Origin: Ruminococcus sp.
Lineage (GTDB): Bacteria > Bacillota > Clostridia > Oscillospirales > Ruminococcaceae
Length of the DNA stretch: 64,000 bases
NCBI GenBank assembly: GCA_017397925.1
Contig: JAFQHO010000037.1
Span: 1-64,000 of the forward strand
Reading direction: 5' to 3'
Below are positions 2,876 to 39,236 of this stretch, one piece after another. The number at the start of each line of letters is the position of its first letter. Within the stretch, counting starts at the first letter, position 1. The notes beneath the pieces are model-generated. The model was not told the origin of the DNA. It was given only the letters and a program-made list of their open reading frames with translations, and ran no database searches. The position numbers and the translations under genes are program-made.

Positions 2876-4210
2876 ATGTCATTAAAGCTTAACACAAAAT
2901 ATCTTCAGGATTTTGTAAATGCCGACGAAATGGCAGGCATCAAGGCACAGGTTGAAACTGCTGCTGATATGCTTCACAATAAATCTGGTCTCGGCAACGA
3001 TTTCCTCGGTTGGGTAAATCTTCCCACAGATTATGATAAAGAGGAATTTGCACGTATAAAGGCTGCTGCTGAGAAAATCAAGTCCAATTCCGATATCCTC
3101 ATCGTTATCGGTATCGGCGGTTCATACCTCGGTGCAAGAGCTGCTATCGAGCTTCTCAAATCGCCTTTCTACAACAATATGAAGAAGGATACACCTGACA
3201 TCTACTATGTTGGAAACAGCATCAATCCTACATACCTCAACGAGGTTATCGCTCTTTGTGAGGGTAAGGATTTCTCTGTAAACGTAATTTCAAAGTCAGG
3301 TACAACAACTGAGCCTGCACTTGCTTTCAGAATCTTCAAGAAAATGGTTGAGGATAAGTACGGCAAGGAAGAGGCTAAGAACCGTATTTTTGCTACAACT
3401 GACAAGGCAAGAGGAACACTTAAGAATCTCTCCGACGCTGAGGGTTACGAAACATTTGTAATTCCTGATGATGTTGGCGGACGTTTCTCCGTTCTTACAG
3501 CTGTTGGTCTGCTTCCTATCGCTGTTGCAGGCTGCGATATCGACGCTCTTATGAAGGGCGCTGCAAAGGCTCAGGCTGAGCTTTGCGCTGATTTCGATAA
3601 CAACGACTGCTACAAGTACGCTGCTCTCAGAAATATCCTCTACAGAAAGGGCAAGTCCGTGGAAATGCTCGTTTCCTACGATCCAAGCTTCGTAATGATG
3701 TCTGAGTGGTACAAGCAGCTCTTCGGCGAGAGCGAGGGTAAGGATAACAAGGGTATCTTCCCTGCATCCGTTACATTCTCTACAGACCTTCACTCTATGG
3801 GACAGTATATCCAGGACGGTGCAAGAATTATGTTCGAGACTGTTGTTGATATCAAGACTCCCAAGCAGGATCTTTTCCTTGAAGCTGACGAGGAAAATCT
3901 TGACGGTCTTAACTTCCTCACAAACCAGAATATGTCTGTTGTAAACCGCAAGGCATTTGAGGGTACTGTTCTCGCTCACACAGAGGGCGGCGTACCAAAT
4001 ATGATTCTTGAGCTTGCTGATACAACTGAGGAAAGCGTAGGATATATGATTTACTTCTTCGAGAAGGCTTGTGCAATTTCAGGCTATGTTCTCGGTGTAA
4101 ATCCCTTCAATCAGCCCGGTGTTGAGAGCTACAAGTCAAATATGTTCGCTCTCCTCGGAAAGCCCGGTTATGAGGGCGCAAAGGCTGAGCTGGAGGCTAA
4201 ACTTGGCTAA
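2876..4210 (+). CDS. pgi: Glucose-6-phosphate isomerase
   Basis: Interconverts glucose 6-phosphate and fructose 6-phosphate in the cytoplasm. The 444 residues match the short Firmicute form. Visible signatures are GGSYLGARA near residue 80, SKSGTTTEP (sugar-phosphate binding) and the PGI signature [15 protein letters not shown] chose the ATG at 2876 because GGAGGT lies 7 bases upstream; an upstream in-frame ATG at 2798 falls inside the promoter and would add 26 unrelated residues. It has its own strong promoter. The next gene follows after 90 bp containing a small GCAGC/GCTGC hairpin without a T-tract, so read-through is possible. Confidence 0.96.
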
Positions 4211-4300
4211 GATTGGCTGAGCAGCTAAGCTGCTGTGCTGACTTATATATTCAAGATACAATAAATCTCTCTGCTGAAAGGCGGGGAAAGGAGAAAAAAT

Positions 4301-4708
4301 ATGATTAAGCTTATTACAGGTAAAAAAGGTACAGGAAAAACAAAAATAATCATCGACCAGATCAACGAGGCAGTTAAATCCACAAACGGAAATATTGTTT
4401 GTATTGAAAAAGGCGATAACATCAGACGTTCTATCAGCTACAAGGTAAGATGGTGCGACGTTGAGCAGTTCGGCGTTGAGGGTATGGATTCTTTCTATGG
4501 CTTCGTAGCAGGTATGCTCGCTGGTAACTATGATATTAAGGATATCTTCGTTGACGGTATCTTCAAGATCGTTGGCAGAGATTACGAGGCTTTCGGCAAG
4601 ATGCTCGAAAAGCTTGACAAGCTCACAGGTGATGATTCTGTAATTACATTCACAGTTTCTGCTGATGAGGCTGAGCTTTCTGAGAACGTTAAGCAGTTCA
4701 TCAAGTAA
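4301..4708 (+). CDS. Small P-loop nucleotide-binding protein, function unknown
   Basis: A 135-residue cytoplasmic protein beginning with a P-loop (GKKGTGKT, residues 7-14). A hydrophobic strand ending in Asp (DIFVDGI) is a possible Walker B. The C-terminal half is helical and charged. A good AAGGAG site precedes the ATG. I recall similar short ATP-binding proteins in Clostridia without a known role. It sits between pgi and the DUF177-rpmF operon, which has its own promoter, so it probably shares the pgi transcript. There is no room for lid or sensor domains of larger P-loop families. Nucleotide binding is likely; hydrolysis and partner are unknown. Confidence 0.75.
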   Translation: MIKLITGKKGTGKTKIIIDQINEAVKSTNGNIVCIEKGDNIRRSISYKVRWCDVEQFGVEGMDSFYGFVAGMLAGNYDIKDIFVDGIFKIVGRDYEAFGKMLEKLDKLTGDDSVITFTVSADEAELSENVKQFIK

Positions 4709-4743
4709 TTGTCTGTTTTTGAAGTAAATTTTTCCGATATCTC

Positions 4744-8858: not shown

Positions 8859-8868
8859 TCTATTCAGG

Positions 8869-8880
8869 TGAGGATCCTCA
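8869..8880. repeat. 12-bp palindrome between plsY and gpsA
   Basis: TGAGGATCCTCA, flanked by TCTAT and ATAGA, could form a longer imperfect hairpin. There is no T-tract, so it is more likely an mRNA processing or stability hairpin than a terminator. Confidence 0.5.
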
Positions 8881-8909
8881 GATAGATTGACGGAAAGGGA
8901 GGTATATCA

Positions 8910-9908
8910 ATGGCAAATATAGTAATTCTCGGCTCGGGAGGCTTTGGCCTTAGCCTTGCCATTACAGCCTTTAAAACAGGCAGACATAGCGTAACGGTAT
9001 GGTCTAAATTCCAGGAGGAAATTGACGAAATCCGTTTAAAAGGAGAGCATATCCACAAACTTCCCGGAGTTGCAATCCCACCCGAGATACAGCTGACAAG
9101 CGATATTTCCTGCATCAGCGGCTGTGATATTCTTATTTTCGGTATACCTTCAAGCTTCCTGCGCTCCGTTGCACAGCTTGCTAAGCCCTATGTGACTAAG
9201 GATATGATCGTTGTCAATTCGGGCAAGGGCATTGAGGAAGGCAGCTTAAAGCTTCTCAGTCAGGTTATTGAGGATGAGCTTGGTACAGAGAAGCTTGTTG
9301 TTCTTTCTGGACCTTCTCACGCTGAGGAGGTTGCACGTTCAATTCCTACAGCTATTGTTGCCGCTTCACGCAATAAAGAGGCTGCACAGTATATACAGGA
9401 GCAGCTTGGCAGCGATAAGCTGAGAATATACCTCAATGACGATGTTATCGGCTGTGAGCTTGGGGGAGCTTTAAAGAACATTATTGCCCTCTGCTGCGGT
9501 ATATGCCTTGGTATGGGCTACGGTGATAACACAAAGGCGGCGCTTATGACAAGAGGTATGCACGAGATTATGCGTCTTGGAGTTGCCGCAGGAGCTGATC
9601 CTATGACATTCGGCGGTCTTACAGGTCTGGGTGACTTGATAGTTACCTGCACAAGCCTGCACAGCCGAAATGCAAGAGCAGGAAAGCTGATAGGCGAGGG
9701 TATTGCTCCCAATGAGGCTGTTCGTCAGGTTGGTACTGTTGAGGGCTACTGGTGCTGTCATACAGCCTATGAACTGGCTAAAAAGCTTGGAGTTGAAATG
9801 CCTATAACAGAGCAGCTCAACGAGGTTCTTTTCAATGGCGGTAAAATACAGGATGCAATGACAAAGCTTATGGGCCGTCCAATGATAAATGAGCGTGAGG
9901 TATACTAA
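8910..9908 (+). CDS. gpsA: Glycerol-3-phosphate dehydrogenase [NAD(P)+]
   Basis: Reduces dihydroxyacetone phosphate to sn-glycerol 3-phosphate for lipid synthesis. The 332 residues begin with a Rossmann dinucleotide fold (GSGGFGLSLA), followed by NSGKGIE, LSGPSHAEEV and GALKNIIAL, which are typical GpsA segments that include the catalytic lysine. The GGGAGG ribosome-binding site is strong. It is paired with plsY upstream, so the two consecutive steps are encoded together. Confidence 0.97.
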   Translation: MANIVILGSGGFGLSLAITAFKTGRHSVTVWSKFQEEIDEIRLKGEHIHKLPGVAIPPEIQLTSDISCISGCDILIFGIPSSFLRSVAQLAKPYVTKDMIVVNSGKGIEEGSLKLLSQVIEDELGTEKLVVLSGPSHAEEVARSIPTAIVAASRNKEAAQYIQEQLGSDKLRIYLNDDVIGCELGGALKNIIALCCGICLGMGYGDNTKAALMTRGMHEIMRLGVAAGADPMTFGGLTGLGDLIVTCTSLHSRNARAGKLIGEGIAPNEAVRQVGTVEGYWCCHTAYELAKKLGVEMPITEQLNEVLFNGGKIQDAMTKLMGRPMINEREVY

Positions 9909-24427: not shown

Positions 24428-25444
24428 TTAGTCGTTTATAATTTTCTTTGCATTTTCAAGTGCGTCAATTACCTTATCGCACCATTCGTCAAATTCGGGA
24501 TCTTCAAGCTGGCATTCGGGGTGGGAGAGAACGTATTCCACAGTATTGCGTATTCCCTGCTCAACGTGGACAGTTGCCTTGAATTCGGGGACAATACGCT
24601 TTATCTTGGAGTTGTCAAATACTACTGTCTGTGCCTTATCTCCTGTAAGGCTGCCTGTGAGGTCGTAATCGCTTACATCGGCAAGGAACTCAGATGAAAC
24701 GTGGTAAGGTTTAAGCTCAACGCCTAAAGCGTCGGCAATTGCTTGATATATCTGATTCCAGGTTACGGATTCATCTGATGTGATGTGAAAAGCCTCGCCT
24801 ATAGCGTGGGGATTTCCCATAAGGCCTGTAAATCCAATGGCGAAATCAGAATTATGTGTGATTGTCCAGAGAGTTGTGCCGTCACCGTGAATAATAACAG
24901 GTTTGCCCTCCATAATGCGCTTTATAACCTGATAGCTGCCTTTTTTGCCGTGAACTCCCAGAGGGACACTTCTTTCATCGTAGGTATGGCTTGGACGGAC
25001 AATTGTCACAGGGAAGCCCTCCTTGCGGTAGTGCTTCATAAGAAGCTCCTCAATAGCTATCTTATTGCGTGAGTATTCCCAGTACTTGTTAGCAAGGGTT
25101 GTGCCTTCTGTTATTATATAATCGCAGACAGGCTTGTGATATGCAGAGGCAGAGCTGATGAATATAAACTGCTTTGTTCTGCCGTTGAACAGGCGGTAAT
25201 CTCTTTCAGCCTGCTCGGGTACGAAGCATATGAAATCGCAGACAACGTCAAATGTCATATCTGCAAGGGCTTCTTTTGCCTCCGTTTCATTGTTGATGTC
25301 GGCTGTGATAATCTTCACATTTTCGGGGAGATTACCGTTTCTGTTTCCGCGGTTGAGTAGGTATACCTCCCAGCCTGTTTCAGCCAATCTGCGTGTGATT
25401 GCGGAGCTTATAGTGCCTGTTCCGCCAATGAGTAATGCTTTCAT
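24428..25444 (-). CDS. NAD-dependent epimerase/dehydratase (extended SDR)
   Basis: A 338-residue Rossmann protein: N-terminal GGTGTISSAI (NAD(P) binding) and ISSASAY for the catalytic Ser. The Y-x3-K is most likely YSRNK in the KYWEYSRNK segment. VRPSHTYDER follows, as in UDP-sugar epimerases. It should act on a nucleotide sugar in the cytoplasm; the exact sugar is not readable. Its start codon overlaps the end of the upstream dockerin gene by 4 bases (AATGA), so a cytoplasmic sugar enzyme is translated together with a secreted dockerin protein, an unusual pairing. Confidence 0.87.
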   Translation of the reverse strand: MKALLIGGTGTISSAITRRLAETGWEVYLLNRGNRNGNLPENVKIITADINNETEAKEALADMTFDVVCDFICFVPEQAERDYRLFNGRTKQFIFISSASAYHKPVCDYIITEGTTLANKYWEYSRNKIAIEELLMKHYRKEGFPVTIVRPSHTYDERSVPLGVHGKKGSYQVIKRIMEGKPVIIHGDGTTLWTITHNSDFAIGFTGLMGNPHAIGEAFHITSDESVTWNQIYQAIADALGVELKPYHVSSEFLADVSDYDLTGSLTGDKAQTVVFDNSKIKRIVPEFKATVHVEQGIRNTVEYVLSHPECQLEDPEFDEWCDKVIDALENAKKIIND

Positions 25445-27345
25445 TTTAAATTCCCTCTCTTTATAATTTCTTTTCGCATTAAAATAAAGTCGAAGACGGT
25501 TACAGAATTGTCACCGTCAAAATTGCCGTTTTCCAATCTCGCGGGAATATCACCTCCAAGCAGATATTTTTCCATTGAAACAGCATCGGCAACGTTGACA
25601 ATTCCGTCACCATTAAGGTCGCCTTTAGTGCTGATTTCGGCTTTTATGGGTTCGTGACAGATAAATTCATCTGTTGTAAAGCAATAGCTCCAGATTGTAT
25701 TATCGGTACGCATGAAGTAGCAGGTAAGAATATCATCCTCAAAGTAATCACACAGAAACTCTGCAACATCATTTACAGCCACTTCCTTGCCGTTATATTC
25801 AAGTGTAAGAACATTATCATAATCAATGTAATACTCGTGGGGAGTAAGCTGACTGCTCATTATTTCTCCGTGGGGTATTCCGAAATATCCCGATGTTCTG
25901 TAGATTTTTCCCTGTGATATAGGGGTGTACAGTGATACTTCTGTTGTAGTACCTATTAAATATGCTGTACCGTCGCTTTTAATATGGACATCTCCTGTTA
26001 CTATGCCGTTATCGTAAGTAAGAAATCCGACTTTTACAACGTCCTCGGCTTTTTTTGTTGCAACAGGGGGAGTTTTTCTTGTGTTTATTTCCCATAATAC
26101 ATTATTTTCATCTACAAAAAAGTCGTGGGTAGTACTGATTGGATTCATTATGCCTGTGGGATATGGAGTGCATAAGCGTTTATTATTCTCGGTATAATTG
26201 TCAAGATAGAGCAGTTCGCCCTCAGTGGAAATGCAGTAGCTGCGAAAGCTGTTCTCCGAAAATGAAGCTATATTATCGCAGACATAATCGGCTGTGCAGA
26301 CGCTGTTATCATAATTGAGTATGTATAATTCATTGTTCTCCGAAATGAGATATGAGCCGTTTATATCGCGGAATTTCACTCCCTCCGGAGCAGTTACGGG
26401 AATATTGTTTATATATGCCTTTCCTTCAGATGTAAGAATGAGATCATCACCCATAAGATTAATTGTCAGATATGAATTATCATATTTTTCAACGTTTTCG
26501 TGGTGAAGTATAACCTCACCGTCTTTCACTCCGTAAAGTCTGCCGTCAGAAATTATTGACTTTTTGTCAAAGTAAAAGTATGAACTGTAAACCTCTGAGT
26601 TGTATTCTACATCAGCGGCAGGTGGAATGTTGGCATACTGTGGTTCTTCAACTTTTATTTTCCCAGTGAAAAGCACTTCGCCGTCAAATTCTATGGTATA
26701 TGATGTTTCTCCGCAATTTTTTCCGTAAACAGCTGCAATTTCTTTGTAACGATAAAAACCTTTTTCATCTTCGCCGCTTACATCGCTGTTGAAAGAAGCA
26801 ACATTAAGGTCGTCAATACGGAATTTTATTTCATCTGCTTCAATGAGTCCGATCGGAAAGCAGCCTGCTGCGGAGGCAAATCCCTTTTTTACTGTAATAT
26901 CTTCACAGCGGATGATCTCCATACGCTGTGAAGGAGTTATCTGCTCCATATTGGTCAGCATTAAGTAATCAAGCTCCATATTCTTTGCAAAGTTGATGTC
27001 TGTAATTGGAACAGAAGTCAGGAAAACATTTTTCAGATTCGGCAGCTGTGAAAGAATAGAAAGATCGGTTATATTTCCATTTCGCAGATTTATATGGTAT
27101 AAATTTTTCATTCTTGAAATCCACGAAATATCCTGAACCTCTGTAAGGTCAAGATTGAGCCATTGGGAAGAAGCGAGTTCTTCTTCGGTAAAAACACCGT
27201 CACCGTTTTCATCGTGGTGTAAAAGCTGTTCGTATGCGGATTTGTCTACGTCAGCAGGTATAGCTGTTTCATCAGCGGCAGCGCTGAGAGGAATTGCTGA
27301 TATTGTCAAAGCTAATGATAAAATAATTGCGGATATTTTTTTCAT
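25441..27345 (-). CDS. Secreted dockerin protein with leucine-rich and RCC1-like repeats
   Basis: A 634-residue protein. In order: signal peptide (about 1-24); an EF-hand-like DENGDGVFTEEEL (45-57); a short leucine-rich stretch (about 70-140; MKNLYHINLRNGNITDLSILSQLPNLKNVFL); a mid region with an Ig-like piece; five or six loose RCC1/propeller-like repeats (YLISENNELYIL, FFVDENNVLWEI, IKSDGTAYLIG, YIDYDNVLTLEY); and a C-terminal type I dockerin (about 573-631) with two calcium loops, DLNGDGIVNVAD and NFDGDNSVTVFD. No glycosidase motif is seen, so it may bind or scaffold substrate on the cellulosome. Transcribed from a promoter embedded in a hairpin (27404-27432). Confidence 0.83.
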   Translation of the reverse strand: MKKISAIILSLALTISAIPLSAAADETAIPADVDKSAYEQLLHHDENGDGVFTEEELASSQWLNLDLTEVQDISWISRMKNLYHINLRNGNITDLSILSQLPNLKNVFLTSVPITDINFAKNMELDYLMLTNMEQITPSQRMEIIRCEDITVKKGFASAAGCFPIGLIEADEIKFRIDDLNVASFNSDVSGEDEKGFYRYKEIAAVYGKNCGETSYTIEFDGEVLFTGKIKVEEPQYANIPPAADVEYNSEVYSSYFYFDKKSIISDGRLYGVKDGEVILHHENVEKYDNSYLTINLMGDDLILTSEGKAYINNIPVTAPEGVKFRDINGSYLISENNELYILNYDNSVCTADYVCDNIASFSENSFRSYCISTEGELLYLDNYTENNKRLCTPYPTGIMNPISTTHDFFVDENNVLWEINTRKTPPVATKKAEDVVKVGFLTYDNGIVTGDVHIKSDGTAYLIGTTTEVSLYTPISQGKIYRTSGYFGIPHGEIMSSQLTPHEYYIDYDNVLTLEYNGKEVAVNDVAEFLCDYFEDDILTCYFMRTDNTIWSYCFTTDEFICHEPIKAEISTKGDLNGDGIVNVADAVSMEKYLLGGDIPARLENGNFDGDNSVTVFDFILMRKEIIKRGNLK

Positions 27346-30653: not shown

Positions 30654-30664
30654 TAAATAATGGA

Positions 30665-30699
30665 AAATCCGCAGAGAAAATTATACTCTGCGGATTTTT
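30665..30699 (+). terminator. Terminator after the symporter gene
   Basis: AAATCCGCAGAG/CTCTGCGGATTT stem, then T-rich sequence. Confidence 0.9.
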
Positions 30700-30800: not shown

Positions 30801-30829
30801 TTGAAAAATATGTGTATTTTTGCTATAAT
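30801..30829 (+). promoter_or_regulatory. Promoter of the diguanylate cyclase gene
   Basis: TTGAAA (30801-30806), 17 bp, TATAAT (30824-30829), preceded by TGC (extended -10). Confidence 0.85.
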
Positions 30830-30875: not shown

Positions 30876-32522
30876 ATGAAAAAGTACTACAGATATTTTA
30901 TTACTTTAATGGTAACATCAATTCTTATGTTTATATCTGTTCCTTTCTGTAGTTTGGCGGCTGATGACTACAAAGCTCTTGTGGATACGGGATTTGAATC
31001 GGGGGAATACGAAGGCTGGTCATCTTTTGGAAGTAAATCAGAGCTGACTATTACAACTGAAAAGGCATACGGCGGTTTTTCCAGTTTGAAATCATACAAC
31101 AGAAGTGAGAATTGGAGTGGTCCGTCACTGAATATAACAGATATTGTAACACCCGGAAAAGAATATCTTTTCAGAGTGTATGTTATTAGCGACACTGCCG
31201 AAGAAATGGACGTACTTCTTACCCTGAAATATGTTGATGACAGTGGTGCTGAGTCTTATAATAATATGATAACTGCAACTGTAGGTAATGATGAGTGGGT
31301 ATTTGTTGAATGTTCAGCGGCTATTCCAGAAAATATAACTGATGCTATATTTTATATTGAAAGCGGAACAGGAACAGAAAACTTTTTTATAGATGATGTT
31401 TCTATATACGGTTCTGAATTTCCGAAAAAAGATGTTATTTTCGAAGAAAACAAGAGCTCTCTTGAGTTTGATTTTGAAAATGGAGTAGAGGGCTGGATAC
31501 CAAGAGGCATACTTTCAATGAGTATTTCTGAGGATTTCAGTTATTCCGGAAATAATTCCCTTATTGTTTCTGATAAAACCGAGAATTGGAATGCACCTAT
31601 GGTCAGAATTGCAAGTGTATCTCCGGGAGTTAATTACACATATTCTGCTTATGTTATGTATATTGACAGAGAATGCGATGAAAATCATTATTTTTCTATC
31701 AGACTGCAATACAATCTTAATGGAGAGGAAATCTATTCGACAATAAAAAGTAAAATGCTTGAAAATGGTACCTGGTCAAAGATTTCAGGAGATTTCATTT
31801 TACCTCTGAACGCAACAGATGTATATTTCTATGTTCGTGAAGACTCTGATGATGAAGAAGAACTTCTTGAGAATATTACTTTTTATGTTGATAACGTAAA
31901 AATTGTTGACAGTACAGCTGCTGTCAGGCTGCGCAGACGCAATATGATTTTAATGGCTGTCGCTGCGTTTGTTGTTATTATAGGATTATTCTTCCTTCTG
32001 AGGTATTTTATCAGAAAAAATAATGAAACAAAGGCAGCTCTCCGAGCTTCTACAATTGATTCGATGACAGGTGCCAGCAATAGAAATACTTACGAGGAAT
32101 ATGTTGCAGAACTTGAAAAAAATCCTGAAAAATGCGAGAAGCTGTATGTAATGGCCTGTGATGTCAACTTCCTTAAATATATCAACGATAATTACGGACA
32201 TGATAGCGGAGATAAGGCAATTATCCGTTGCGCCGGAGTTCTCCTTCGTGTATTCGGAAAAAAAGGAACGGTATATCGAATTGGCGGCGATGAATTTATG
32301 TGCTTCTCAACAGTTGATTTGTCTGACGCTGTAAATGTTGAATTTGCACGGGAAAATATCGATTACAAGGGCTATCCTTTCTCTGCAGCTGTTGGTACAG
32401 CACATTATGACCCCTTGATTGACCTTGGTGGGCCTGATATAAAGGCTCTTATAGCACGAAGTGATAAAGCTATGTACAACCACAAGGTTGAAATTAAGAA
32501 GAGCGTTGATTTTATTGATTAG
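30876..32522 (+). CDS. CBM22-like x2 - transmembrane - GGDEF diguanylate cyclase
   Basis: A 548-residue sensor. Signal/anchor at 1-29; carbohydrate-binding domain A at about 31-178; domain B at about 195-345; membrane helix at about 356-377; GGDEF domain at about 392-545. Each extracellular domain opens with an FE(S/N)G..GW strand and carries an ENW motif (SENWSGP, TENWNAP) like the TESWNGA of the CBM22 in the next gene's xylanase. The cyclase half looks active: DVNFLKYINDNYGHDSGDKA and a perfect GGDEF at 470-474. The inhibitory RxxD site is replaced by GKKG. It would make cyclic-di-GMP when xylan-type sugars bind outside (inference). GGAGG precedes the ATG; the xylanase gene starts 134 bp downstream under its own promoter. 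Confidence 0.88.
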   Translation: MKKYYRYFITLMVTSILMFISVPFCSLAADDYKALVDTGFESGEYEGWSSFGSKSELTITTEKAYGGFSSLKSYNRSENWSGPSLNITDIVTPGKEYLFRVYVISDTAEEMDVLLTLKYVDDSGAESYNNMITATVGNDEWVFVECSAAIPENITDAIFYIESGTGTENFFIDDVSIYGSEFPKKDVIFEENKSSLEFDFENGVEGWIPRGILSMSISEDFSYSGNNSLIVSDKTENWNAPMVRIASVSPGVNYTYSAYVMYIDRECDENHYFSIRLQYNLNGEEIYSTIKSKMLENGTWSKISGDFILPLNATDVYFYVREDSDDEEELLENITFYVDNVKIVDSTAAVRLRRRNMILMAVAAFVVIIGLFFLLRYFIRKNNETKAALRASTIDSMTGASNRNTYEEYVAELEKNPEKCEKLYVMACDVNFLKYINDNYGHDSGDKAIIRCAGVLLRVFGKKGTVYRIGGDEFMCFSTVDLSDAVNVEFARENIDYKGYPFSAAVGTAHYDPLIDLGGPDIKALIARSDKAMYNHKVEIKKSVDFID

Positions 32523-32559: not shown

Positions 32560-32588
32560 TTGAATTATTAATTATTTGTTAATATAAT
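32560..32588 (+). promoter_or_regulatory. Promoter of the xylanase/esterase gene
   Basis: TTGAAT (32560-32565), 17 bp, TATAAT (32583-32588). Confidence 0.8.
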
Positions 32589-32656
32589 ATGTATTAGGGG
32601 AATTATATGGATTATTAATGTATATCATTACTTTTTTTAGAAAGTGGGGTTTTTTA

Positions 32657-35047
32657 ATGAACAAATTCATCAGAAAAACTGCCTGTGGTCTGCTAAGTGT
32701 TGTGGTCAGCGCAACAATGCTGCCTGCTGCTTTAACAGCAAGTGCTTATCAGGAAACGGGCAAAAAAGACGGCTATGACTGGGAGCTGTGGAATCAGGAC
32801 GGTAAGGGTACTGTTAGTATGGATGTAGGGGATAACGGTTCGTTTACCTGCAGCTGGAGCGGTATTGAGAACTGTTTATTCCGAACAGGTCAGAAGCTTG
32901 GAAGTACAAAGACATACGATATGTATGACGGTATTTATCTGGATTACGATGTTGACTACTTCCCTAAGGGCAATTCCTATATGTGCGTTTACGGCTGGAC
33001 AGAAAACGGCAAGGATGCCACACATCCTACTGTTGAATATTATATTGTAGACGCGTGGGGTTCCTGGCGTCCACCCGGAGCAAATAATCCTCTGGGAACA
33101 GTAGAGGCAAACGGTCATAAATATGATATCTACAGAACAGAGAGAGTAAATCAGCCGTCAATTCACGGTACAGAAACATTCTATCAGTATTGGAGCGTGC
33201 GTCAGGACAATCCTGCGCGAAATAACGCAGAAACGAATATCAGCGGACGTATCAGTATTTCCAAGCACTTTGAAGCGTGGGAAGATGCAGGTATGGATAT
33301 GAGCGGTGTTATGTACGAGGTTGCTCTCAACGTTGAGGGTTACCAGTCAAACGGTTCTGCTAAGGTTAATTCAAATATTGTAACATACGGAGAAGGTCAC
33401 GGCGATGAGGGTGCAGTTATAAAGCCTACAGAGCCTAAGGAACCTGATGCAAGCGGCTATTACTACAATGATACATTTGAAAAAGGTGTAGGTGAATGGT
33501 CCGGCAGAGGTTCTGCTTCTGTAGAAGCAAGCGGCGGCACACTTGCAGTAACAGGCAGAACTGAATCTTGGAATGGAGCAATTACTTATCTTGACCCTGC
33601 TGCATTCAGAGCAGGGGAGACATACAGCTTTGGTGCTGATGTAATGCAGAATGAAACTTCTTCTGAGGATTTCAAGCTTACATTACAGTGTACTCTTGAC
33701 GGTGAGGAACAGTATCTCACGGTTGCGGAGGGTAAAGGCTCCAAGGGTGAGTGGGTAACACTTTCCAACAGTGCATACACAATCCCTGAAGGTGCGTTGA
33801 ACTGCTATCTTTACGTTGAAACTGTTGATACAACTACAAATTTCTTCGTAGATAATGCAGCAGGAGCACTAAAGGGGGTGATTACCGACAACGGAGGGAC
33901 TCCCCCAAGTACTCTGGGTGGTACTGTCGGTGATCTTAATGGCGACAGTACTATTGACGTTTTCGATCTTATTCTTGAAAGGGAAGCGATCGTAAATACT
34001 TTCGCGGGTTCTGCTACAAATAAGGCTGCTGATATTGACGGAAACGGAACAGTTAATGTGAATGATCTTGTTCTTCTTTCAAAGTTCCTTCTCGGTCAGA
34101 TTGATAAGTTCCCGCAGGTTACAACTACAAAGCCTCCTGTAACTACAACTACAACAAAGAAGCCGGAAGTTATTACAACTACTACAAAGGCTCCATCAGG
34201 CGGCAATGTTGACGGTGCAGCATATATGGATTCACTCAGAAATTCCATAACAGCAAATGTACCTTCAAATATTACATCCAATTCGAATAACGGTTGTAAG
34301 GAAGAAAAGATTTCTTACTATTCTTCAATTGCGAAGAAGAATAAGAATGCAGTGGTAATTCTTCCTCCGAACTACAGCACAAGCAAGAAGTATCCCGTTG
34401 TTTATGTAAATCACGGTATCTTTGGCTCAGAAAATGATATGGTAGGCTACTGTAAGTCTATTGGCGGAAACCTTATGGCAGCAGGTGAGGCAGAGGAGAT
34501 GATTCTTGTAAGCTGTGCTATGTACACAAGTGCTACTTCAGATCAGTGTATGGGTATGACTGCTGAGGAATGTGCGAAGTATGACGCATTCAGAGAGGAC
34601 CTTATCGAGTGCCTTATGCCTTATATGGAGGAGCATTACTCCGTAGCAACAGGCAGAGAGAATACAGGTATCTGTGGCTTCTCAATGGGCGGCAGAGAGT
34701 CACTCTATATCGGTATCACAAGACCGCAGTATTTTGGCTATATCGGTGCAGCTTCTCCTGCACCCGGAATTACTCCCGCAAGTGATATGTTTATGACTCA
34801 TCCGGGAAATATGCAGCCTTCTGAATTCAAGGTTCAGGATCACACATATGATCCGTATTTCCTTATGATTACAGGCGGTACAAATGATACTGTTGTTGGT
34901 ACATTCCCCAAGCAGTATCACGAAATGCTTACAACAAACGGACAGCCTCATATCTGGCAGGAAATCCAGGGCGGTGGACACGATGCAAGTTGTGTAAATC
35001 CCCTTATGTATAATTTCCTTAAGAATGCTTTCAAGGCTGGTAAATAA
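32657..35047 (+). CDS. Bifunctional cellulosomal xylanase-esterase: GH11-CBM22-dockerin-CE1
   Basis: A 796-residue secreted enzyme. Order: signal peptide (1-30); GH11 xylanase (about 32-248) with nucleophile E127 in TVEYYIVDAWG and acid/base E227 in VEGYQSNGSA; CBM22 (about 268-405); type I dockerin (about 424-482) with loops DLNGDSTIDVFD and DIDGNGTVNVND; a Thr/Pro/Lys linker (about 488-515); CE1-type esterase (about 520-796) with nucleophile S676 in GFSMGG and His775. It would cut xylan and remove acetyl or feruloyl groups while held on the cellulosome by an internal dockerin. The ATG at 32657 starts a proper signal peptide; the in-frame ATG at 32618 would not. The ribosome-binding site is weak (GTGGGG). 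Confidence 0.94.
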   Translation: MNKFIRKTACGLLSVVVSATMLPAALTASAYQETGKKDGYDWELWNQDGKGTVSMDVGDNGSFTCSWSGIENCLFRTGQKLGSTKTYDMYDGIYLDYDVDYFPKGNSYMCVYGWTENGKDATHPTVEYYIVDAWGSWRPPGANNPLGTVEANGHKYDIYRTERVNQPSIHGTETFYQYWSVRQDNPARNNAETNISGRISISKHFEAWEDAGMDMSGVMYEVALNVEGYQSNGSAKVNSNIVTYGEGHGDEGAVIKPTEPKEPDASGYYYNDTFEKGVGEWSGRGSASVEASGGTLAVTGRTESWNGAITYLDPAAFRAGETYSFGADVMQNETSSEDFKLTLQCTLDGEEQYLTVAEGKGSKGEWVTLSNSAYTIPEGALNCYLYVETVDTTTNFFVDNAAGALKGVITDNGGTPPSTLGGTVGDLNGDSTIDVFDLILEREAIVNTFAGSATNKAADIDGNGTVNVNDLVLLSKFLLGQIDKFPQVTTTKPPVTTTTTKKPEVITTTTKAPSGGNVDGAAYMDSLRNSITANVPSNITSNSNNGCKEEKISYYSSIAKKNKNAVVILPPNYSTSKKYPVVYVNHGIFGSENDMVGYCKSIGGNLMAAGEAEEMILVSCAMYTSATSDQCMGMTAEECAKYDAFREDLIECLMPYMEEHYSVATGRENTGICGFSMGGRESLYIGITRPQYFGYIGAASPAPGITPASDMFMTHPGNMQPSEFKVQDHTYDPYFLMITGGTNDTVVGTFPKQYHEMLTTNGQPHIWQEIQGGGHDASCVNPLMYNFLKNAFKAGK

Positions 35048-38970: not shown

Positions 38971-39236
38971 ATATCATAAAGGCTGAGATGAAGAGGAGTA
39001 GGTATATTTCCGCTTTCAGAGAGCTGTCGGCAGGTGTGAGACAGCAGCAGGGGATATATTGAAGTAGCTTCGGAGCTGTATGGGCGAAAGCGTACAGGCT
39101 GTGTAGTTCATAACGTGTTTCTCACGTTACAGGGAAAGAAGTTGCATGACTTCGCAGAGTGCGGGATATTTTCCCGAATTCAGGTGGTAACACGGACTAT
39201 GTTCGCCCTGAACCTATTTTACGGTTCGGGGCTTTT
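38971..39236 (+). promoter_or_regulatory. T-box leader of valS
   Basis: The leader shows Stem I features (GATGAAGAGGAGTAGG..., AGAGAG and a GTGTGAGACAGCAG distal part) and the conserved T-box AGGTGGTAACACGG at 39182-39195, just before a terminator (39205-39236). Uncharged tRNA-Val would stabilise the antiterminator. GTA at 39064-39066 in GAAGTAGC is my candidate valine specifier codon. Confidence 0.93.
39205..39236 (+). terminator. Regulated terminator of the valS T-box
   Basis: GCCCTGAACC/GGTTCGGGGC stem followed by TTTT; competes with the antiterminator formed by the T-box sequence. Confidence 0.9.

Follow-up and report, generated by a model that had tools for sequence, protein, structure and literature searches.

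The locus described here raises the question of whether a module that enzymes use to bind plant cell wall polysaccharides can serve as the extracellular input of a second-messenger enzyme in Ruminococcus. Our window, a 64,000-nucleotide stretch from the genome of Ruminococcus sp., a gut bacterium that digests fibre, contains on its forward strand an ORF of 548 residues (positions 30876-32522) that starts with ATG and has a ribosome-binding-site-like GGAGGG 6 bases 5' of that codon. Based on matches from Pfam, NCBIfam and phmmer, its product is a putative receptor diguanylate cyclase of CBM22-CBM22-TM-GGDEF architecture. From the N terminus onward, and all on the forward strand, the gene encodes a predicted Sec signal peptide (residues 1-28, 30876-30959; cleavage site, S-L-A then A, placed by eye), a first CBM22 module (residues 35-180, 30978-31415) and a second (residues 196-346, 31461-31913), both delimited by Pfam and phmmer, a single transmembrane helix (residues 357-375, 31944-32000) and a GGDEF domain (residues 389-543, 32040-32504). 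Hydropathy analysis gave just two peaks, at residues 9-27 and 357-375, bearing out the signal or anchor and the one membrane helix proposed in a preliminary description of this DNA.

Pfam returned two CBM_4_9 stretches (E 1.6e-39) and a GGDEF match at residues 393-538 (E 1.5e-20). Because CBM_4_9 is a joint model that lumps CBM families together, assignment to CBM22 needs matches to solved chains. Run against such chains, phmmer matched residues 34-345 to the Endo-1,4-beta-xylanase C tandem (4xup, E 7.2e-28); module 1 alone matched 4xuo over residues 34-176 (E 5.2e-13) and 1dyo over 43-175 (E 2.6e-14), and module 2 alone matched 4xun over 194-347 (E 3.3e-11). We take these four solved xylanase modules to be CBM22 and, by homology to them, each of the outer modules of the window receptor is a CBM22 module, in agreement with the two CBM22-like outer domains suggested earlier. 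The inner domain retains the GGDEF motif (residues 470-474) together with D429, N437, D446 and K537; the first three of these additional residues are presumably equivalent to PleD D327, N335 and D344, which contact metal or guanine. The RxxD inhibitory site is absent from the window's GGDEF domain, positions 461 and 464 both being G, so the intact loop without RxxD had been read correctly at the outset. Many active cyclases lack RxxD, and the domain is apparently catalytically competent as judged from its residues. No RsgI_N domain was among the Pfam matches of the receptor, whose inner domain is GGDEF.

To assess the binding surfaces, we used R25, W53, Y103, Y136 and E138 (1dyo numbering), which we take to be the xylan-site residues defined by mutagenesis; the solved entry 1h6x has A at the R25 position, as expected of a site mutant. 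The equivalents of R25, W53, Y103, Y134, Y136 and E138 are F51, W80, Y128, I158, Y160 and E162 in module 1 and R210, W238, Y287, Y317, Y319 and R321 in module 2. Both ENW motifs reported in the preliminary description are present, and their tryptophans (W80 and W238) align with W53 of 1dyo. At the five mutagenesis-defined positions the sequence is thus F,W,Y,Y,E in module 1 and R,W,Y,Y,R in module 2. Each module keeps four of the five and departs once, module 1 having F51 in place of R25 and module 2 having R321 in place of E138. Six of six orthologues keep FWY-YE as the pattern of the first module and RWYYY- as that of the second; at the E138 position of the latter, four of them have R, one has G and one has Q, the residue usual elsewhere. 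Because this position is R, G or Q, the second module may bind weakly or may bind another ligand. Judged from these residues, the first module is probably functional and the second altered.

The preliminary description had proposed a search for the CBM22-TM-GGDEF architecture in other Ruminococcus genomes, and this search uncovered an expanded family. CBM22 and GGDEF occur together in 62 distinct ORFs of the loci examined, 51 of them with whole domains; the other 11, broken or cut by a locus end, were excluded from residue counts, and two of the 51 (L050 1-1725 and L057 3-1739) are 5'-open yet have all domains. A further 116 GGDEF ORFs in the loci examined, some cut at locus ends, lack CBM22. 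Counting the window's own genome where it was drawn, the full-length architecture was present in 9 of 100 genomes of the window's genus, in 10 of 11 genomes of a second genus and, with the best three candidates per genome scored, in at least 8 of 396 genomes of the window's family. Wider draws took in 394 genomes of the order, 391 of its class and 398 of its phylum. They were scored in the same way and overlap one another and the family draw, so that sums across them are invalid; the architecture was found in them in the window's own genome alone, and two genomes of the class draw matched in GGDEF alone. Within a named collection the architecture occurs in 8 among the 80 loci listed, all labelled Ruminococcus and one of them R. 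flavefaciens; these named carriers are Ruminococcus MAGs. Among the genomes sampled, therefore, the family is seen in two Ruminococcus-like genera. Its members have one, two or three CBM22 modules. All 51 proteins have a hydrophobic segment separating GGDEF from the last CBM, and 46 have another ahead of the CBM; the GGDEF motif is intact in 45 of 51, and RxxD was found in none of the 51.

Site residues across this family follow module position. Among first and middle modules (n = 45, non-redundant), the W53 position is W in 28, Y in 10, F in 6 and N in 1; the Y103 position is Y in 34 and F in 11; the Y136 position is Y in all 45; and the E138 position is E in 41, Q in 3 and D in 1, while the R25 position is F or L in 31. 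In last modules (n = 39) the R25 position is R in 34 and the E138 position is Q in 28, a residue that seven of the eight non-redundant second modules of GH10 enzymes also have there. Only 17 of 20000 random column sets from first modules had a mean entropy as low as that of the four core site columns. For last modules 299 of 20000 sets were as low, a weaker conservation, and the core mean entropy (0.83) shows these columns to be hardly more conserved than aromatic columns generally (0.94). These statistics suggest that the core xylan-site positions are constrained across the cyclase family, more weakly in last modules. In some array members the second site is clearly destroyed (for example, YMENLA and IASTAY at the six positions).

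Such arrays occur in the second genus, where groEL and a LacI-type regulator flank the tandem receptor genes (some of the flanking genes were identified by eye). They comprise three genes at L049 and L155, four at L053, L055 and L154, and eight at L054 and L153; at L049, L054 and L153 one or two other genes separate groEL from the array. All six broken GGDEF motifs belong to the two 8-gene arrays, whose last three genes (L054:1782-5845 and L153:3742-7751) each encode one CBM22 and a degenerate GGDEF domain (for example, NGGQF, DANRF or NNNEF); their motifs make these products possible pseudo-cyclases. Seven related array members have the CBM22 pair and the membrane helix with a low-complexity tail in place of GGDEF (L049:4291-5964, L053:7732-9486, L055:10073-11809, L051:1-1739, L061:6042-7607, L154:8915-10753 and L155:6997-8871). 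In six of the seven, the end of this tail has a common motif, [VI]F[GN]IETFSY[DE]...PF[DE]GF; the remaining one, L051, is truncated by a contig end. Contig ends of genome G334 (L050:1-60 and L051:1-30) have reading frames with the peptides SEMCIRDR and CLLYTSP, presumably translated sequencing-adapter residue left in assemblies. The window's own genome has a second receptor copy, 38% identical and divergently oriented from a GGDEF-EAL gene. At the corresponding locus of relatives, a PocR sensory-domain gene (L048:9382-10404 by Pfam; L156:8861-9988 and L149:9836-10906 by BLAST) stands beside the GGDEF-EAL gene, divergent from the receptor; it is absent beside the window genome's own copy. The second copy of genome G841 is split by a stop (L149:7695-8786 and 8859-9368) and is apparently a pseudogene or an assembly error.

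Close relatives of the outer pair outside the cyclases are GH10 xylanases with CBM22 pairs from the same bacterial family. All eight such enzymes scanned by Pfam have two CBM_4_9 matches and GH10, two of them with a dockerin within the stretch examined. A tree of 123 CBM22 domains was built by quick search, with SH-aLRT support only and a midpoint root, after 22 of 145 domain rows had been removed as at least 80% identical to a retained row. In it, the last modules of cyclases cluster with eight of eight GH10 second modules (SH-aLRT 93), and cyclase first modules cluster with 3 of 11 GH10 first modules (SH-aLRT 94), the other eight lying outside. In this tree, the second module thus shows clear kinship with the GH10 enzyme pair, and the first module shows it in part. 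The window modules are at most 31% and 33% identical to their best GH10 counterparts. Compared with the tandem CBM22-1/CBM22-2 of GH10 xylanases (4xup), the receptor has the same pair in the same order, last modules that cluster together and similar site residues, with Q as the usual letter in the second modules of each. The two differ in that the GH10 tandem is joined to a xylanase and the receptor pair to a membrane helix and GGDEF, and in position 25 of cyclase module 1, which is mostly F or L. The simplest history would have the pair taken over from a GH10 xylanase, a direction that we infer. The GH11 xylanase adjoining the receptor gene was also considered as the source of the sensor modules and rejected, its CBM22 falling outside the sensor groups of the tree. 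This CBM22 shares 25% and 29% identity with the two receptor modules of the window, and a few other cyclase modules are nearer to it (up to 40%, L059); since the GH10 identities are little higher than these, rejection of the GH11 source rests on the tree.

This adjoining gene (32618-35047, forward strand; likely true start 32657) encodes, by Pfam, a GH11-CBM22-dockerin-esterase cellulosomal xylanase whose six CBM22 site positions read R,W,Y,Y,Y,E. The preliminary description had named a CBM22 xylanase as the next gene and argued from it for a link to xylan. The adjacency stands, but its conservation does not: the xylanase lies directly 3' of the cyclase on the same strand in three of seven orthologous loci (the window, L145 and L056/L146, the last with the cyclase-xylanase block inverted relative to its flanks) and does not adjoin it in L047, L147, L148 or L150. 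We therefore rejected a conserved cyclase-xylanase operon as a general feature. The xylanase also has a promoter-like site of its own (32560-32588, from a promoter scan) and, with its CBM22 outside the sensor groups, the neighbour argument for a xylan link is weak; the receptor family provides stronger support. Upstream of the cyclase lies a promoter-like site (TTGAAA-17-TATAAT, 30801-30829, forward strand; 11/12, with TG before the second hexamer), but the scan picked up 15 sites in this region, where shuffled sequence gave 8.6 on average, which makes this site weak on its own. A terminator-like hairpin recognized by eye (30664-30698, forward strand) follows a symporter gene and separates it from the cyclase; it is missing from the hairpin scan, which had a loop limit of 8.

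The window cyclase is 57-75% identical to its orthologues, compared with 85-99% for most flanking genes; exceptions at 64-72%, in one locus each, are a zinc-finger gene, w43923 and w38144. Among the five closest orthologues, identity is 77-88% over GGDEF and 60-75% over the CBM modules. Elsewhere in the window, positions 25441-27345 encode a secreted leucine-rich-repeat protein with a dockerin by Pfam, probably a non-enzyme attached to the cellulosome, and a T-box leader (38976-39213) precedes a valyl-tRNA synthetase-like gene named by eye. Locus L046 contains a gene (3508-4734) for a CobW-like GTPase, identified by eye, with five long His-rich repeats.

What such a receptor might control was approached through the c-di-GMP proteins of the window's own genome, which has 15 GGDEF and 4 EAL matches. 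Eight of its 13 other GGDEF proteins were scanned by Pfam, and four of the eight have an N-terminal LacI-type sugar-binding domain (Peripla_BP_3; L001:1-1986, L002:1477-3402, L003:1489-3408 and L005:1495-3447). Since three of these four lack a hydrophobic segment (L005 has one at 422), most are probably cytoplasmic sugar-sensing cyclases. Taken with the CBM22 receptors, they make c-di-GMP look wired to carbohydrates, perhaps with input from both sides of the membrane. PilZ was not found in this genome, and a PilZ-mediated output was set aside. Its one MshEN domain belongs to a PilB-like ATPase, which is encoded in a type IV pilus cluster together with a further ATPase that is PilT-like, a prepilin peptidase and three proteins with a pilin-type N_methyl motif. 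The first residues of PilB fit RIGxxLVxxGLLxxxxLxxxLxxQ, which we take to be the MshEN signature; a second motif copy (KFGDVVVELGF...) is imperfect. At the Rfam gathering score, the window, L046 and L162 yielded T-box alone and no c-di-GMP riboswitch, and a search of the window's own genome for the c-di-GMP-I riboswitch gave no match, where the control gave none either. In published work, c-di-GMP is reported to be higher on cellulose in Fibrobacter, a type IV pilin-like protein of R. flavefaciens 007 is increased on Avicel (PMC3672088), and pilin-like genes of R. albus 7 are without differential expression on cellulose (PMC4300822). The missing PilZ, the imperfect second MshEN motif and the unchanged R. 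albus 7 genes are counterpoints to any output proposed below.

To our knowledge, the sigma-I/RsgI route of C. thermocellum is the best-described form of biomass sensing in cellulosome-forming bacteria. The RsgI proteins of that species have, on the outside, modules with affinity for cellulose, xylan or pectin (PMC4711584). Like the receptor, RsgI (CBM, PA14 or GH10 outside, anti-sigma inside) is described there as membrane-spanning, with an outer polysaccharide-binding module and an inner regulator, and both systems have several paralogues, those of RsgI having different ligands (PMC4711584). They differ in output, RsgI controlling sigma-I factors where the receptor has GGDEF, and their topology is reversed, the CBM being C-terminal in RsgI and N-terminal in the receptor. 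The window's own genome has one RsgI_N match only, below cut-off. Among cyclases, a 2022 review of c-di-GMP sensing describes dCACHE as an extracytoplasmic input of receptor diguanylate cyclases and 7TMR-DISMED2 as a predicted carbohydrate-sensing jelly roll (PMC8846402). On that description, both resemble the CBM22 receptor in coupling an extracytoplasmic ligand domain across the membrane to GGDEF, and 7TMR-DISMED2 also in being a predicted carbohydrate sensor. The CBM22 receptor differs in its input, a module of plant-polysaccharide enzymes, and in having, by hydropathy, one helix plus a signal peptide, whereas 7TMR-DISM receptors have seven helices.

The terms CBM, carbohydrate-binding and lectin are absent from the main text of that review (PMC8846402), and by term search a comparative cellulosomics paper on ruminococci mentions CBM22 without GGDEF. 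PMC5457731 was considered as a precedent for a CBM receptor and rejected, since it describes a HAMP-GGDEF protein with reported glucosidase activity. A CBM22-GGDEF receptor was not found in the open-licence literature covered (among the titles and abstract openings listed). Single-pass receptor cyclases are known already, as is RsgI as a precedent for a CBM sensor; the apparently new element is CBM22 as the input of a cyclase.

The analysis as a whole supports the proposal, already made in the preliminary description, that a wall-polysaccharide module may act as the input of a second-messenger enzyme. We favour, with moderate confidence, the reading that binding of plant beta-glycan outside the cell regulates c-di-GMP inside it through a single-pass receptor cyclase. 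The two CBM22 modules would bind xylan or a related plant beta-glycan outside the membrane, and binding would alter dimerisation of the cytoplasmic GGDEF domains and hence the rate of c-di-GMP synthesis. Because GGDEF domains act as dimers and a polymer with many sites could gather receptors, the simplest route would be polymer-induced pairing, in which one chain draws together two or more receptors; an equally open route is a helix shift within a preformed dimer that would carry a conformational signal. The resulting c-di-GMP would favour sessile, fibre-attached behaviour, for which type IV pili driven by the MshEN-bearing PilB would be the best candidate output. We infer the ligand, the response sign, the dimerisation mechanism and the output alike, and the proposed sign could run either way. 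Counterpoints to this reading are the replacement of R25 by F51 and of E138 by R321 in sites recognized by alignment, the position of 8 of 11 GH10 first modules outside the cyclase first-module group, and GH10 identities of 31-33% at best.

The same substitutions could mean that binding has been lost altogether, the outer modules persisting as a folded spacer or a protein-protein interface and the cyclase being constitutive or otherwise controlled. The array members with destroyed second sites fit such a history, but the window receptor retains W80, Y128, Y160, E162, W238, Y287 and Y319, and its orthologues keep both site patterns without exception; we consider loss of binding quite improbable. 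Binding might instead be directed at bacterial glycans, with CBM22 recognizing polysaccharide of the cell's own wall, its exopolysaccharide or the matrix of a neighbour, and with the cyclase reporting crowding or the biofilm state. The modules do also face the cell's own wall, and Mep72, named as a biofilm-associated metzincin protease, is the top NCBIfam hit for the CBM region, although its score of 96.7 bits (E 1.3e-27) lies below the cut-off of 645. CBM22 domains are reported in enterococcal phages, where they may target bacterial glycans (PMC11269942). In the tree, however, the receptor modules stand closer to those of GH10 xylanases from the same bacterial family, the first module keeps core xylan-site residues, and the named carriers (8 among the 80 loci listed) are all Ruminococcus MAGs, the wider draws having yielded no other carrier. 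We regard a sensor of self-glycan or matrix as unlikely.

To a mainly mechanical role we assign a slightly lower probability still: the modules would be chiefly a membrane-bound adhesin, and the cyclase would answer clustering or pull on insoluble fibre, soluble oligosaccharides not being agonists. One to three CBM22 modules per family member would suit avidity, and in a different tandem enzyme CBM22 modules have been found to bind xylan and cellulose in insoluble form (PMC8280721). The approximately 320 outer residues, on the other hand, may not span a Gram-positive wall, and steric constraints may therefore limit how well the receptor reaches insoluble fibre.

Returning to regulation of c-di-GMP by plant beta-glycan, a broader version, which we offer only tentatively and consider doubtful, is that Ruminococcus-like bacteria that degrade fibre have a multi-receptor system. 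In it, arrays of up to eight receptors with diverging sites, together with pseudo-cyclase and GGDEF-less modulators, would be integrated into one c-di-GMP signal of fibre composition that sets pilus attachment. The arrays in any case provide a natural series of diverged binding sites, and the window receptor is a concrete, testable candidate. If our preferred reading is true, the CBM22 receptor cyclase would link plant-polysaccharide recognition to c-di-GMP, and Ruminococcus would have a second-messenger pathway through which contact with fibre could shape its behaviour.
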